In this document: piece after piece, positions 3,994 to 60,380 of the stretch | Numbering within the stretch: the stretch's first letter is position 1 | How the letters are laid out: each line of letters begins with the position of its first letter | Assembly (NCBI GenBank): GCA_003222195.1 | Contig: QHVB01000025.1 | Span: 124,001-188,000 of the forward strand | From: Gemmatimonadota bacterium | GTDB taxonomy: Bacteria > Gemmatimonadota > Gemmatimonadetes > Gemmatimonadales > GWC2-71-9 | Length of the DNA: 64,000 nucleotides | Direction: 5' to 3' | Position numbers and translations under genes: made by a program | The notes under the pieces: generated by a model | The model's database searches: none | The model's input: only the letters and a program-made list of their open reading frames with translations | Told to the model about the DNA's origin: nothing

Positions 3994-4066
<73 letters not shown>

Positions 4067-4084
4067 CTGGGAGAATCAAAAGGC

Positions 4085-4149
4085 GGTGTCGGGTGTCAGG
4101 TGTTTGGTTTCAGAAATGACACTACAGGCACCTGACACCAGACACCTGT
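4085..4149 (+). repeat. inverted heptamer array upstream of tuf, potential long hairpin
   Basis: The left arm (4085-4102) and right arm (4129-4146) are 18-base inverted repeats with one mismatch (4091:4140), separated by 26 bases. Each arm is itself a run of 7-mers: GGTGTCG, GGTGTCA, GGTGTTT, GGTTTCA on the left and CACCTGA, CACCAGA, CACCTGT on the right. It ends about 30 bases before the tuf start, so it could form a strong hairpin in the leader RNA. No U-tract follows, so it is not a classical terminator. Confidence 0.65.
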
Positions 4150-4180
4150 AACGGAAACGAACTAAAGGACATTCGCGAAA

Positions 4181-5380
<1,200 letters not shown>

Positions 5381-22515: not shown

Positions 22516-23511
22516 CTAGTCCTCCATGCGAGAGTGCAGCGGAGCAACGGGAATCAGCTGGACCGACCGTCCGGCGCGCGTGACGCGGGCGTCCAGCACC
22601 CGGGCCAACGCCGTCAGCGCTTCGTCGGCTGACTCGGGACCGAAAGAAATCGTCAGCGGCTCGGCCAGGAGTGCGGAGTCGCTCACCGCGATCTCGAGGT
22701 CGTACCAGCGGCCGAGCTGCGCGATCACGCTGCTGAGCGGCGCCTCGTGAAACCACAGCACGCCGCGAGTCCACGAGACGTACCGCGCCACGGGGATGCC
22801 GCGCGTCCGGGTCACGGTGCCCCCGGCATCGATCACGCCGCGCTCGCGCGGGTGCAGTGTCAGCGGCGACGCGGTGCGGGTGCGTGCCGCGGGACGCAGC
22901 ACGACGCGACCTTCAGCCACTACGACCTGAAGGTGCTCCTCCCGGTAGGCGCGCACGTCAAATTGGGTGCCGAGGTCTTCGGTGGTGCCGCGCGCCGTGC
23001 GGACCACGAAGGGTCGCGTGGCATCGTGCCGCACCACGAAGTACGCTTCTCCTTCCAGCTCGACGGCGCGCTCACGCACGCCGTAATCGCGCGGCAGGCG
23101 CAGCCGCGAGTCGACGCTCAGCAGGACGCTCGTGCCGTCCAGTAACGTGAGTTGCGATCGTTGCCCCGGAAGGGTGGCGTACTCACGGAACCGAGGGAGC
23201 GGCGGCCGGCGCCAGAAGACTGTGCTGCCGGTGAGGAGCACGATCGTCGCGGCAATCCACGCCCACGCGGGCGGGATTCCCCATCGGGACGGCGCAGGAA
23301 ATCGGGCGCGCCGGAGACTCGCACGGGCGCGCGCGAGGTCCCAGGAGCGCGTCCTGGCGCCCGTCAGGCGCCAGACGCTTTGAAGCCGGTCGAGGAGCGC
23401 GACCCGTCTTGGGTCGGCGGTGATCCAGGCCTGGACGGCGGCCGCTTCATCGGGAGCGCAATCGCCCTCGAGGTAGTGGAGAATGTCCGACTCATCAAAC
23501 GCGTCGCGCAT
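22516..23511 (-). CDS. FecR-type anti-sigma factor
   Basis: 331 residues from ATG at 23511, chosen because MRDAFDESDILHYLEGD matches the N-terminus of FecR/DUF4880 proteins. The cytoplasmic N-terminal domain (~1-85) binds the sigma factor. A single membrane span follows (WAWIAATIVLLTGSTVFW, ~97-115), then the periplasmic FecR domain (LPGQRSQLTLLDGTSVLLS...) and a C-terminal STN-like domain. It relays ligand status from the SusC STN domain to the ECF sigma factor. It ends six bases before the susC start. Its first 148 bases overlap the sigma gene in another frame. Confidence 0.92.
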   Translation of the reverse strand: MRDAFDESDILHYLEGDCAPDEAAAVQAWITADPRRVALLDRLQSVWRLTGARTRSWDLARARASLRRARFPAPSRWGIPPAWAWIAATIVLLTGSTVFWRRPPLPRFREYATLPGQRSQLTLLDGTSVLLSVDSRLRLPRDYGVRERAVELEGEAYFVVRHDATRPFVVRTARGTTEDLGTQFDVRAYREEHLQVVVAEGRVVLRPAARTRTASPLTLHPRERGVIDAGGTVTRTRGIPVARYVSWTRGVLWFHEAPLSSVIAQLGRWYDLEIAVSDSALLAEPLTISFGPESADEALTALARVLDARVTRAGRSVQLIPVAPLHSRMED

Positions 23512-28025: not shown

Positions 28026-29462
28026 TTACGGCAGCGCGTTGCCGGGGCAGCTCAACGGCGCCGCAGCCCCGACCCGGGCCCGCGCGTCGCATTCCTGGTT
28101 GGGCAGGACGCTGGCGACGGCGACGGTAAAGCCCGCCGTCACGTCCTGTGGCAACGTGCCCAGGGCGGCCAGCCGGTTAAAGCGGCGATAATCCGGCCAA
28201 CGATGGCCTTCCTGATAGAGCGACAGCGTCCGCTGGAGCAACAGCTCGGTCACGAAGTCCGCATTGTTCGCGGGAGCGGCAAATGCGACTGCCGCCGTGC
28301 CTCCCTTGGTGGCGCCGGATTGCGCCCGCACCGCAGCCAAATCGGCAATGGCGCCTGCCTGATTCCCCGTGAACCACTCCGCCTCCGCCCGCAGCAACAC
28401 GAGCTCCTCGTTGCGGATAATCGGAATCGACGTGATGGTCGATCCATACGTGCAGGGACGATGCGACGAGCTTACGCCCACTTCCGACCTGGGGTTCGAC
28501 GCCGGGCACCCGGTGGAAATCTTGCGGCGATAGCGATCGTCCGTTGCGACGCCCGCAATCGAGTCGATCCCCGGGTGCACGTACTCATCACTGCCCACCG
28601 ACCCCGTGAACGCGACGGTGTTCGGCGCGTCGCCCGCGGCGGTGGAATAGATCGTGTAAGTGCCGTTGTCGCGATTCGTCGAGTCGAAAGCGGCGGTGGT
28701 CGATACCCACGTGCCGCCAAGCGCGGTCAAGGCCGCGGCATAGCACGTCGCGCAGCCAAGGGAACCGCGCTTGGCCGCCACGCGCGCCTTGATGGCGCGG
28801 TTGAACTGCGTAAACCCGGCCGGCGTGCTCGCCACGCCTACGCCGAACCCACTGTAGATCGGGAAATAGAACGTGGTGCCGGCCGCCGCCAGATCCGTCT
28901 GGGCCTCATCGAGCTTGGCGGAGATCCACGAGTACACCGAGTCCTGACTGACGACTGGAAGTACCGCGTTGACGTCGTCCGTCATGTCGACCACCGCGCC
29001 AATCGTGCCGCGGGCCTCGATGACGTGCAGCATGTCGAGGGCGATGATCGTCTTCAACACCCCCAACGCCCCATGCTTCTCGGCGTCGGTGAGGGCCGTC
29101 GTAGCGTTGACAATCGCGGTCGCCGCGTAGGCGTTGCGGTAATTGCCGTACCGCCCCGCCCACTGCGTGCCGGCGTCGAACGAGTTGTTCTGACGCCAGT
29201 CTTTCAACGGGCCCGTGATGAAGCGCCCGTCGGTGATGAACATGTAATACGTCTCGCGGCCAAAACTGCCGAAGGCGCGGATCTGATCGGTCCGATTGAC
29301 GCGATACGTCGACAGTACCCCGACGATCATGCGGCTCGTCGCCGCGCGCGGGTTGGACAGCGCCCCGCCGAGCGTCGGGTTGTTCGGATTGGTCAAATCC
29401 AGCTTGCAGCCAGCCAGCGTGACGGCGGCCACCGTCGCGAGGCTCGCAAGAATGCGTCGCAT
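28026..29462 (-). CDS. SusD/RagB family outer-membrane lipoprotein 2
   Basis: 478 residues from ATG 29462, where a lipoprotein signal begins (lipobox LAG-Cys19 followed by KLDLTNPNNP). SusD-type features include the N-terminal NPNNPT segment, the central helical repeats and a C-terminal LYQEGHRWPDYRRFNRL motif, the counterpart of the SusD 'R-FWDLRR' helix. It pairs with the SusC receptor upstream, and a terminator follows. Unlike the first pair, no sigma/FecR genes are attached. Confidence 0.9.
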   Translation of the reverse strand: MRRILASLATVAAVTLAGCKLDLTNPNNPTLGGALSNPRAATSRMIVGVLSTYRVNRTDQIRAFGSFGRETYYMFITDGRFITGPLKDWRQNNSFDAGTQWAGRYGNYRNAYAATAIVNATTALTDAEKHGALGVLKTIIALDMLHVIEARGTIGAVVDMTDDVNAVLPVVSQDSVYSWISAKLDEAQTDLAAAGTTFYFPIYSGFGVGVASTPAGFTQFNRAIKARVAAKRGSLGCATCYAAALTALGGTWVSTTAAFDSTNRDNGTYTIYSTAAGDAPNTVAFTGSVGSDEYVHPGIDSIAGVATDDRYRRKISTGCPASNPRSEVGVSSSHRPCTYGSTITSIPIIRNEELVLLRAEAEWFTGNQAGAIADLAAVRAQSGATKGGTAAVAFAAPANNADFVTELLLQRTLSLYQEGHRWPDYRRFNRLAALGTLPQDVTAGFTVAVASVLPNQECDARARVGAAAPLSCPGNALP

Positions 29463-47767: not shown

Positions 47768-48292
47768 ATGCCAAAGCCGAAGGCAAAAGCGACGCGGAAG
47801 CCTCGGGCGAGGACCAAGTCCCAAGCCCCGAGTCCCGAGTCCCAAGTCACGCGGCTTGCGTTGCATGATCTGCGGCCGCCGCGCGGCTCGCATCGGGCGC
47901 GCATTCGCAAAGGTCGCGGCCCCGGCTCCGGTATCGGGAAGACCGCCGGGCGGGGCGGTAAGGGCCAAACCGCGCGGCAAGGCGGCCACGTCCGTCCCGG
48001 ATTCGAAGGCGGCCAGATGCCGCTCATCCGGCGGATTCCCAAGCGCGGCTTCACCAATCCGTTCAAGCAGCCGGCGCAGGTCGTGAACGTGCGCCATCTC
48101 GTGCTGCTGGCGGAAGGCGTCGAAGTCACGCCCGAGACGCTCTTCGGCGCCGGGCTGGTGCGCCGTCCCGACCACCCGATCAAGCTGCTCGGCACGGGTG
48201 ACGTCTCCGGACGGAAGTTCGTGGTCAAGGGCGTCGCGGTCTCCGCGAGCGCCAAGTCCAAGATCGAGCAGGCCGGCGGAACGATCGCGTGA
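47768..48292 (+). CDS. rplO: 50S ribosomal protein L15 with repeat-encoded N-terminus
   Basis: 174 residues. The L15 core starts near residue 29 (LALHDLRPPRGSHRARIRKGRGPGSG) and includes GFEGGQMPLIRRIPKRGF. The first ~28 residues are a basic Lys/Arg/Pro/Ser arm, part of which is encoded by five heptamer repeats at 47814-47848. Overlaps the secY GTG by four bases. Confidence 0.96.
   Translation: MPKPKAKATRKPRARTKSQAPSPESQVTRLALHDLRPPRGSHRARIRKGRGPGSGIGKTAGRGGKGQTARQGGHVRPGFEGGQMPLIRRIPKRGFTNPFKQPAQVVNVRHLVLLAEGVEVTPETLFGAGLVRRPDHPIKLLGTGDVSGRKFVVKGVAVSASAKSKIEQAGGTIA
47814..47848 (+). repeat. tandem heptanucleotide repeat inside rplO
   Basis: Five consecutive units CCAAGTC, CCAAGCC, CCGAGTC, CCGAGTC, CCAAGTC (consensus CCRAGYC). 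Because 7 is not a multiple of 3, each unit is read in a different frame, giving the peptide TKSQAPSPESQV. The most regular of the heptamer arrays in the window. Confidence 0.75.
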
Positions 48293-58869: not shown

Positions 58870-60162
58870 TTGTTCGGACCCAAGATCCAGTGCGTCGTCG
58901 TGGTCGGCGCCCAATGGGGCGATGAAGGCAAGGGGAAGATCGTCGACGTCCTGGCGGAGCGCGCGGATCTCGTGGTGCGCTATCAGGGCGGCGCGAATGC
59001 CGGCCACACCGTCGACACGGGGCAGGGCAAGTCGTTCGTCCTGCACCAGATCCCCTCGGGAATCCTCCAGGGCGCGGTCTGCGTGGTCGGCAACGGCGTG
59101 GTGCTGGATCCCGAGCAGCTGTTTGCGGAGCTCGACGCCCTGGAGCAGCGGGGCGTCCGCACCGAGCACAAGCTACACATCTCCGATCGCGCTCACCTCA
59201 CGCTGCCGTATCACAAGCTGTTGGATCGCGCCCGCGAGAAACGCGAACAGATCGGGACGACGGGACGGGGCATTGGCCCGACCTACGAAGACAAGTACGG
59301 CCGGCGCGGCGTGCGCGTCGGCGATCTGCGCAACCTCACCCGCACCCAAGAGCTCGTGCGCGCCCGCGTCGACGCGGCGAACCAGATGCTGGGAATGCTG
59401 GCGGGGGGAGCGGGGAGCGGGGAGCGGGCCAGTGCCGAAGAGCACGTCCATCTGCTGGAGCGCCTCGCCCCGCGGCTCTTACCGCTGGCGGTCGATGCGG
59501 GGCGGGTCGTGTGGGAAGCGCTCGAGCGCGGTGAATCAGTCTTGCTCGAAGGCGCGCAGGGCGCGCTGCTCGATGTCGATCACGGCACCTATCCCTATGT
59601 CACGTCGTCCAACACGACCGCCGGCGGCGCCGCGGTCGGCGTCGGCATCGGCCCCACGGCGATCGATGCGGTCCTGGGCGTCGTGAAGGCGTACACGACG
59701 AGGGTCGGCAATGGGCCCTTGCCCACCGAAGCAGAACCGGCGATCGCCGAGCGGATTCGGGAACTCGGAGGCGAGTTTGGCGCGACGACGGGGCGGCCGC
59801 GGAGATGCGGATGGTTTGACGCCGTCGTGGTCAGGTACGCAGTCCGGGTGAATGGGCTCACCGGACTCGCGGTGACGAAGCTGGATGTCTTGGACACGTT
59901 TGCCGAGATACCGGTCGGAGTGGGCTATCGGCTGGACGGAGAGGAGATCGATAGCATGCCCGCCGACGTGGAGACGATCGCGCGAGTCGAGCCGATCTAT
60001 GAGATGGTACCTGGTTGGCAGAAGCGGTTGACGGACGTCCGAAGGCTTGCGGATCTGCCGCCGGCGGCCAGAGCGTATGTCGATCGCTTGCAGGATCTGG
60101 CCCGCGCTCCGATTCGGTATGTGAGTGTCGGCACGCGGCGGGACCAGATAATCGAAGTTTGA
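58870..60162 (+). CDS. purA: adenylosuccinate synthetase
   Basis: 430 residues with a TTG start at 58870, preferred because GAGGA lies just upstream and the product then begins MFGPKIQCVVVVGAQWGDEGKGK with the expected length. The open frame extends 13 codons further to another TTG. GDEGKG, the GGANAGHT motif, IGTTGRGIGP and GATTGRPRRCGW are all intact. It joins IMP and aspartate with GTP on the way to AMP. A Gly/Ser linker (GGAGSGERAS) is encoded by three perfect GGGGAGC repeats at 59405-59425. Confidence 0.96.
   Translation: MFGPKIQCVVVVGAQWGDEGKGKIVDVLAERADLVVRYQGGANAGHTVDTGQGKSFVLHQIPSGILQGAVCVVGNGVVLDPEQLFAELDALEQRGVRTEHKLHISDRAHLTLPYHKLLDRAREKREQIGTTGRGIGPTYEDKYGRRGVRVGDLRNLTRTQELVRARVDAANQMLGMLAGGAGSGERASAEEHVHLLERLAPRLLPLAVDAGRVVWEALERGESVLLEGAQGALLDVDHGTYPYVTSSNTTAGGAAVGVGIGPTAIDAVLGVVKAYTTRVGNGPLPTEAEPAIAERIRELGGEFGATTGRPRRCGWFDAVVVRYAVRVNGLTGLAVTKLDVLDTFAEIPVGVGYRLDGEEIDSMPADVETIARVEPIYEMVPGWQKRLTDVRRLADLPPAARAYVDRLQDLARAPIRYVSVGTRRDQIIEV
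59405..59425 (+). repeat. tandem heptanucleotide repeat inside purA
   Basis: Three exact tandem copies of GGGGAGC, in frame, encoding a Gly/Ser/Glu loop of adenylosuccinate synthetase. The array fits the period-7 class seen in cysS, rplE and rplO. Confidence 0.75.
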
Positions 60163-60291: not shown

Positions 60292-60380
60292 GCAGAACTC
60301 TCGAAAAGGGCAAACCGCCGGTGACGGCGGGGCGCAAAGCAAGGGGTCTCGCGCAGGCGAGATTGCCCAGCTGCCGAGTC
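60292..60380 (+). ncRNA. GEMM-I (cyclic di-GMP class I) riboswitch aptamer
   Basis: The segment has the GEMM-I order of conserved elements. GGGCAAACC (60308-60316) comes first. A stem CCGCCG/CGGCGG then closes on GTGA, a GNRA tetraloop (60315-60330). Next is GGCGCAAAGC (60331-60340), corresponding to the consensus GGACGCAAAGCC. A second long stem follows, with TCTCGC/GCGAGA (60347-60362) flanked by GGG/CCC, then AGCTGCCGAG. The base matching G20 of the Vibrio Vc2 aptamer is G, which favours cyclic di-GMP over cyclic GMP-AMP. Two deviations are noted: GGCGC instead of GGACGC, and a shortened 3' receptor segment. Confidence 0.82.

Follow-up and report, generated by a model that had tools for sequence, protein, structure and literature searches.

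A hairpin of convergent heptamer arrays in a Gemmatimonadota tuf leader is probably one copy of a dispersed repeat family

The hairpin between the last tRNA gene and tuf in the window, i.e. the whole stretch of 64,000 nucleotides analysed here, probably belongs to a family of convergent heptamer arrays that is dispersed in the genome, turns over fast by slippage and strand switching and is tolerated at a gene junction. Its anatomy is a known one, that of Xanthomonas-like heptamers, and GGTGTCD is another word of such arrays. We observed many copies, other words, empty orthologous sites and changing numbers of units, and remnants were recognized by eye. Arrays would arise, lengthen and vanish mainly via replication slippage and strand switching at the palindrome. 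Paired arrays would survive at gene junctions, where their cost is low, many of them beginning on the stop codon that lies upstream. The tuf copy is predicted to be part of the transcript, in which it would lie between tRNA-Thr and the ribosome-binding site of tuf and fold as a stable hairpin. We regard this copy as probably a tolerated repeat and not a conserved control element, although it may serve as a passive barrier on the RNA.

At 4085-4146 two heptamer arrays converge (GGTGTCG GGTGTCA GGTG... against CACCTGA CACCAGA CACC; Table 1). The preliminary description had proposed inverted heptamer arrays with 18-base arms and a single mismatch. Accordingly, we found arms of 18 nt with 17 of 18 positions paired (94% complementary) around a 26-nt loop, and the RNA fold of 4068-4183 reached -42 kcal/mol compared with -25.6 (sd 3.4) for shuffled sequences (z -4.79, 0 of 200 shuffles as good). 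The placement after the last tRNA and about 30 bases before the tuf ATG also held, as the element starts 17 nt 3' of tRNA-Thr(GGT) and its right arm ends 34 nt 5' of the ATG. The pattern GGTGTCAGGTGT with at most one mismatch matched four times in the 64-kb window, always within the tuf-leader element, with 0.22 matches expected. The suggested unit GGTGTCR was right as a word but not in the R at position 7, since A, G or T occurs there across the genome copies, which gives the degenerate word GGTGTCD. An intrinsic terminator was rejected because the tuf (+) strand has no T-run 3' of the stem; the one weak terminator-like match, at 4153-4120, is confined to the - strand. The second tuf copy (37479) is without a GGTGTC element, and Rfam at the gathering threshold gave no family over the tuf-leader element. 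Elsewhere in the window, a c-di-GMP-I-GGC riboswitch match above the Rfam gathering score was observed at 60300-60379, and ARAGORN predicted two tRNA-Val on the minus strand (23301-23402 and 29338-29424), which are without Rfam support and likely false.

Table 1. Features of the tRNA-Thr/tuf junction in the window
Feature	Position	Strand	Basis or remark
tRNA-Thr(GGT), last of four tRNAs 5' of the element	3994..4067	+	tRNA prediction, Rfam
Left array, G-rich heptamers GGTGTCG GGTGTCA GGTGTTT GGTTTCA	4085..4112	+	sequence
Left arm, part of the left array	4085..4102	+	sequence, arm pairing
Stretch between the ungapped arms, 26 nt	4103..4128	+	includes the final units of the left array; folds in part in the RNA prediction
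Right array and right arm, CACCTGA CACCAGA CACC	4129..4146	+	reverse complement of the left word
AAGGA, Shine-Dalgarno-like	4165..4169	+	outside the long hairpin; sequence and fold
tuf copy 1 (EF-Tu), ATG at 4181	4181..5380	+	

The word is dispersed in its own genome (G000; 3,506,565 bases in 95 contigs). With the element as query, BLAST gave 33 matches (E<=10) that merge into 19 places, including a few weak ones, and the exact two-unit pattern GGTGTCDGGTGTC matched 37 times in 16 places, with 0 matches for the reversed control. We inspected 17 of the 19 BLAST places, the two excluded ones being weak (E 1.9 and 3.6). Ten of these are convergent pairs, every one in the order GGTGTC..GACACC and one (L010) with a long spacer, and seven are single arrays. 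According to a crude GC3-based guess of open reading frames, the convergent pairs sit between ORFs or at ORF ends, in convergent, co-directional and divergent settings, and six of the seven unpaired arrays overlap a guessed ORF. By this guess, single arrays also occur outside junctions. We also compared the variable seventh base between arms. A first count of compensatory pairing (34 of 46 matched compared with 16.6 expected) had to be discarded, as the excess vanished when freedom of register was allowed. With the best register allowed for both, agreement between the arms of the same element was 28 compared with 24.8 (sd 4.4) for arms of other copies in 21 elements, with 1329 of 5000 shuffles as high, and 10 compared with 10.3 in eight own-genome elements. 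Since arms of one element agree no better than arms of different copies, there is no sign of selection on pairing at the seventh base.

TA precedes 21 of 46 arm ends (23 elements from the own genome and from congeners, some of them orthologous) and is present at one or both ends in eight of ten sites; the tuf1 copy and L007 are without a TA end. At six sites, namely L003, L005, L008, L017, L022 and L123 (the tuf2 site of G009), the TAG at the array start closes a long open frame of 204-499 codons, the baseline being 98 of 319 long frames ended by TAG. As the TAG formed with the array closes the frame, the G of that stop codon is also the first base of the array. A frame end at the TAG is not clear for L002 and L004. 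Elements with a different word also start at a stop in G008 at L005 and in G004 at L022, and this comparison rests on these two cases; the frames chosen for the L003 cases and for G006 at L022 were wrong or uninformative, and three intervals were without a stop. Short junctions may account for part of this anchoring on stop codons.

Similar arrays are built from other words. We scanned 464 kb of the own genome (the window and 20 stretches) for tandem arrays with a score of at least 13 and obtained 23 arrays with a unit of seven bases, compared with four, seven and five for units of six, eight and nine bases. Units of 14 bases, the double of seven, gave 14 arrays, a few were found at 12, 15, 16, 18, 20 and 21 bases, and 0 at 4, 5, 10, 11 and 13. 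The first-order Markov control contained one array in total, with a unit of ten bases, and 0 with a unit of seven. At least nine words occur in the own genome, namely GGTGTCD, GGATTGC, GGGGACG, GGGGCTC, GGAGTCA, GGTGCGC, GGTGCGT, TCAATGA and CGTGCGT; with GGTGCGT and CGTGCGT among them, words found at the tuf junction of other species also exist here. In the window we further noticed a degenerate CCAAGTC/CCGAGTC array at 47814-47848, by eye at a ribosomal-protein gene junction, and a GGGGAGC heptamer array at 59405-59428. The congener G005 harbors a convergent hairpin of 10-mers (GACGGTAAGG; C35, 37748-37840), so the architecture is not limited to seven-base units. In a joint hairpin scan of nine genomes, the counts of which exclude runs of N, the left arm of periodic hairpins (score at least 13, n=41) had more G than C in 36 cases, less in four and as much in one; for non-periodic hairpins the numbers were 38, 22 and 13 (Fisher P 0.003, a rough value since copies of one word are not independent).

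At the tRNA-Thr/tuf junction itself, the tuf1 leader was readable in six of nine congeners (G001, G002, G005, G006, G007 and G008). Conservation of the element before tuf in relatives had been suggested as a check of its role, and the GGTGTC word was found in none of the six leaders. Four of them carry a hairpin of different units, which are GGTGCGT in G006, CGTGCGT in G005 and G007, where the hairpin is of common descent, and inverted 13-mer arrays at the same junction in G001 (L064, reverse strand). The leaders of G002 and G008 are bare, the EF-Tu of G008 being 98% identical. With 100 shuffles each, the fold z was -5.0 for G000, -4.4 for G006, -4.6 for G007, -3.6 for G001 and -3.2 for G005, compared with +1.3 and +1.2 for the bare leaders of G008 and G002. 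A repeat hairpin was therefore seen at this junction in five of the seven species read, own included, and different-unit hairpins in four of six congeners compare with 0.26 expected (Poisson P 1.6e-4). G009, which is the closest congener as judged by flank identity, has a GGTGTC hairpin between fusA (assigned by position) and tuf2, where G000 has none; its tuf1 start was not readable, which places G009 outside the six-leader comparison. In G019, which belongs to another family, direct heptamer-like GTYRTRA repeats were seen by eye about 100 nt before tuf (L071), and the hairpin detector found nothing in this leader.

A comparison of seven further GGTGTC sites across eight congeners gave 52 intervals. 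The detector reported the same word in 13, a different word in five, a REP-like palindrome in eight and none in 26, the last class including L274, where only one flank matched nearby. By eye, G009 at L005 and G008 at L002 in this class show remnants that have lost an arm or the centre, G006 at L004 shows a weak copy of the same word, and G002 at L003 a weak GGAGYCA array. The different words at one junction were GGTATTC and AATGCGA at L003, GCCGTCA at L005, and GTGCGCM together with the 8-mer GGCGGTT(A/G) at L022. The baseline for such re-use was a density of 31 elements over 705,613 congener bases, with one junction per kb assumed; it includes some coding hairpins and the test sites and is thus conservative. 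Different-unit hairpins at the seven sites (5 of 52 compared with 2.3 expected, P 0.08) were not significantly enriched, and tuf and the seven sites together gave 9 of 58 compared with 2.55 expected (P 0.0013). Re-use of the same site is therefore notable at tuf and not established at the other sites. The head motif of REP palindromes is GTAG/GGAG. The eight REP-like palindromes follow GTAGGGGCGCAGCATGCTGCGCCCCTAC, though several do so imperfectly, and all have the GCAGCATGCTGC core. GTAG-headed palindromes with this core, again several imperfect, were observed in congeners at L284, L285, L287, L288, L298, L301, L302 and L304, and they occupy two junctions that have a GGTGTC hairpin in G000 (L004 and L008).

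Blocked read-through, protection or processing of the tRNA-mRNA transcript and regulation of EF-Tu had been proposed as roles of the hairpin. The hairpin is real, and its strong fold directly 5' of tuf speaks for a dedicated tuf regulator such as an attenuator, a terminator or an EF-Tu autoregulatory site, but such a role is highly improbable given that the word is dispersed and absent from the six congener tuf1 leaders, that the + strand lacks a T-run and that AAGGA lies outside the stem. With the word dispersed and the six readable sister species bare or differently spelled at tuf, the element is probably not a dedicated tuf switch, and regulation of EF-Tu was not borne out. A related explanation is that any strong hairpin benefits the tRNA/tuf junction by separating the transcripts, by blocking exonucleases or in forming the tRNA 3' end, and that selection refills the site. 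We consider such a word-independent barrier unlikely but worth keeping in view, because the junction is refilled above expectation: the five filled leaders with their GGTGTC, GGTGCGT, CGTGCGT or 13-mer units fold well and the bare ones do not, hairpins in four of six congeners are more than expected, and REP-like palindromes are found at two other junctions. Nevertheless, two of seven leaders do without a hairpin, the common descent in G005 and G007 and the single base between GGTGCGT and CGTGCGT reduce the number of independent events, re-use of different words elsewhere did not reach significance, and differences in tolerance from junction to junction could yield the same excess.

Presence and absence at orthologous junctions would also be expected of a miniature MITE- or REP-like element mobilised in trans by a transposase such as Y1/RAYT. 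The own genome has two Y1_Tnp (PF01797) matches, whose link to the arrays would be putative, and REP-like palindromes are common to two of the junctions. We nonetheless regard mobilisation as quite doubtful, since no fixed ends were seen outside the repeats, the number of units and the loop differ from copy to copy, the same architecture is built from many words and from units of 7, 8, 10 and 13 bases, and no target duplication was seen by eye at the compared sites. A tolerated copy of a dispersed array family thus stays our preferred reading. Some findings speak against it. The tuf junction has a hairpin in more species than a purely passive model predicts, even though G005 and G007 share theirs by descent. 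Most single arrays, six of seven, overlap a guessed ORF. Moreover, slippage alone explains neither that the G-rich arm comes first in nearly all periodic hairpins nor that arrays start on a stop codon.

Arrays of this kind have been described in distant bacteria. The accessible text of PMC4692102 reports that Xanthomonas GGGAATC and Nostoc GGGGA(C/T)T form degenerate, dispersed heptamer arrays, which are mostly intergenic and nearer to the neighbouring ORF on their 5' side, that two species have 70 and 75 convergent pairs, and that the prominent repeats of Xanthomonas are found at different genes in two species. The element analysed here resembles the Xanthomonas repeats in its degenerate tandem heptamers, dispersal and convergent pairs, whereas here several words occur per genome and different words at one junction, compared with what that text describes for Xanthomonas and Nostoc (PMC4692102). 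Judged by criteria of the Rehm 2015 type, we found at least two tandem 7-nt units degenerate at fixed positions, many copies, and paired arrays that are convergent. GGTGTCD has no GGG tract and thus falls outside the G-quadruplex heptamer class. Heptamers, Class I TDNGATT and Class II NNTGAGT, are described in the available part of PMC4476775 for the P6b stem of the Nostoc tRNA-Leu intron, where 7-nt repeats likewise form both sides of a stem and the word was replaced repeatedly at one site. That case concerns one locus in a group I intron, in contrast to the dispersed gene junctions here (PMC4476775), and no Rfam intron match was found in the window at the gathering threshold.

In marine Beggiatoaceae, TAACTGA forms direct intergenic arrays before start codons, translation genes included (PMC4679880, as far as its accessible text goes). 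These are also intergenic heptamer arrays near start codons; however, that text describes one word in direct arrays, with related heptamers rare and one inverted case reported (PMC4679880). It credits the excess of heptanucleotides and the slippage proposal to Mrazek et al. 2007. REP/REPIN elements as presented in the available part of PMC3116915 are dispersed intergenic hairpins as well, and a GTAG-headed palindrome lies at two of our junctions in other species. The GGTGTC element, by contrast, has neither a single conserved palindrome nor a GTAG head. Searches of the open-licence literature brought up no description of hairpins of this type from the group.

The word is not restricted to one species. 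Among the 61 genomes searched as relatives, GGTGTCDGGTGTCDGGTG was present in 12, including nine of the ten genus members (own included), with one match for the reversed control; this control gave 0 matches in the own genome and none in 60 of the 61 relatives. Across the phylum, GGTGTCDGGTGTCDGGTG was found in 23 of 298 genomes, with the reversed control matching in 8 of 298 and up to 19 times in one. A scan of named genomes gave at least 117 stretches in many phyla, the matches listed including Desulfobacterota, Planctomycetota, Acidobacteriota, Chloroflexi, cyanobacteria and Bacteroidota; among the matches listed, a strict convergent partner within 200 nt was found in 7 of 117 and a divergent partner in 0 of 117. 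Counts for the pattern SGTGMGT were set aside for their poor control, since some of these genomes have many matches to the reversed pattern as well.

These results call for caution, as a strong hairpin before tuf need not be a conserved riboregulator. We tentatively raise the possibility that junctions are repeatedly fitted with heptamer hairpins of interchangeable words, with the G-rich arm nearly always first, so that sister species have different words at one junction, flush with one stop codon or directly 3' of one tRNA. If true, this would point either to a novel process that places short convergent arrays next to stop codons and stable RNAs, or to sequence-independent selection for hairpins. 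The preference of bacterial simple repeats for seven bases is a long-standing question, and because one genus offers filled, empty, shortened and re-spelled orthologous junctions, the origin of such arrays can be traced step by step.
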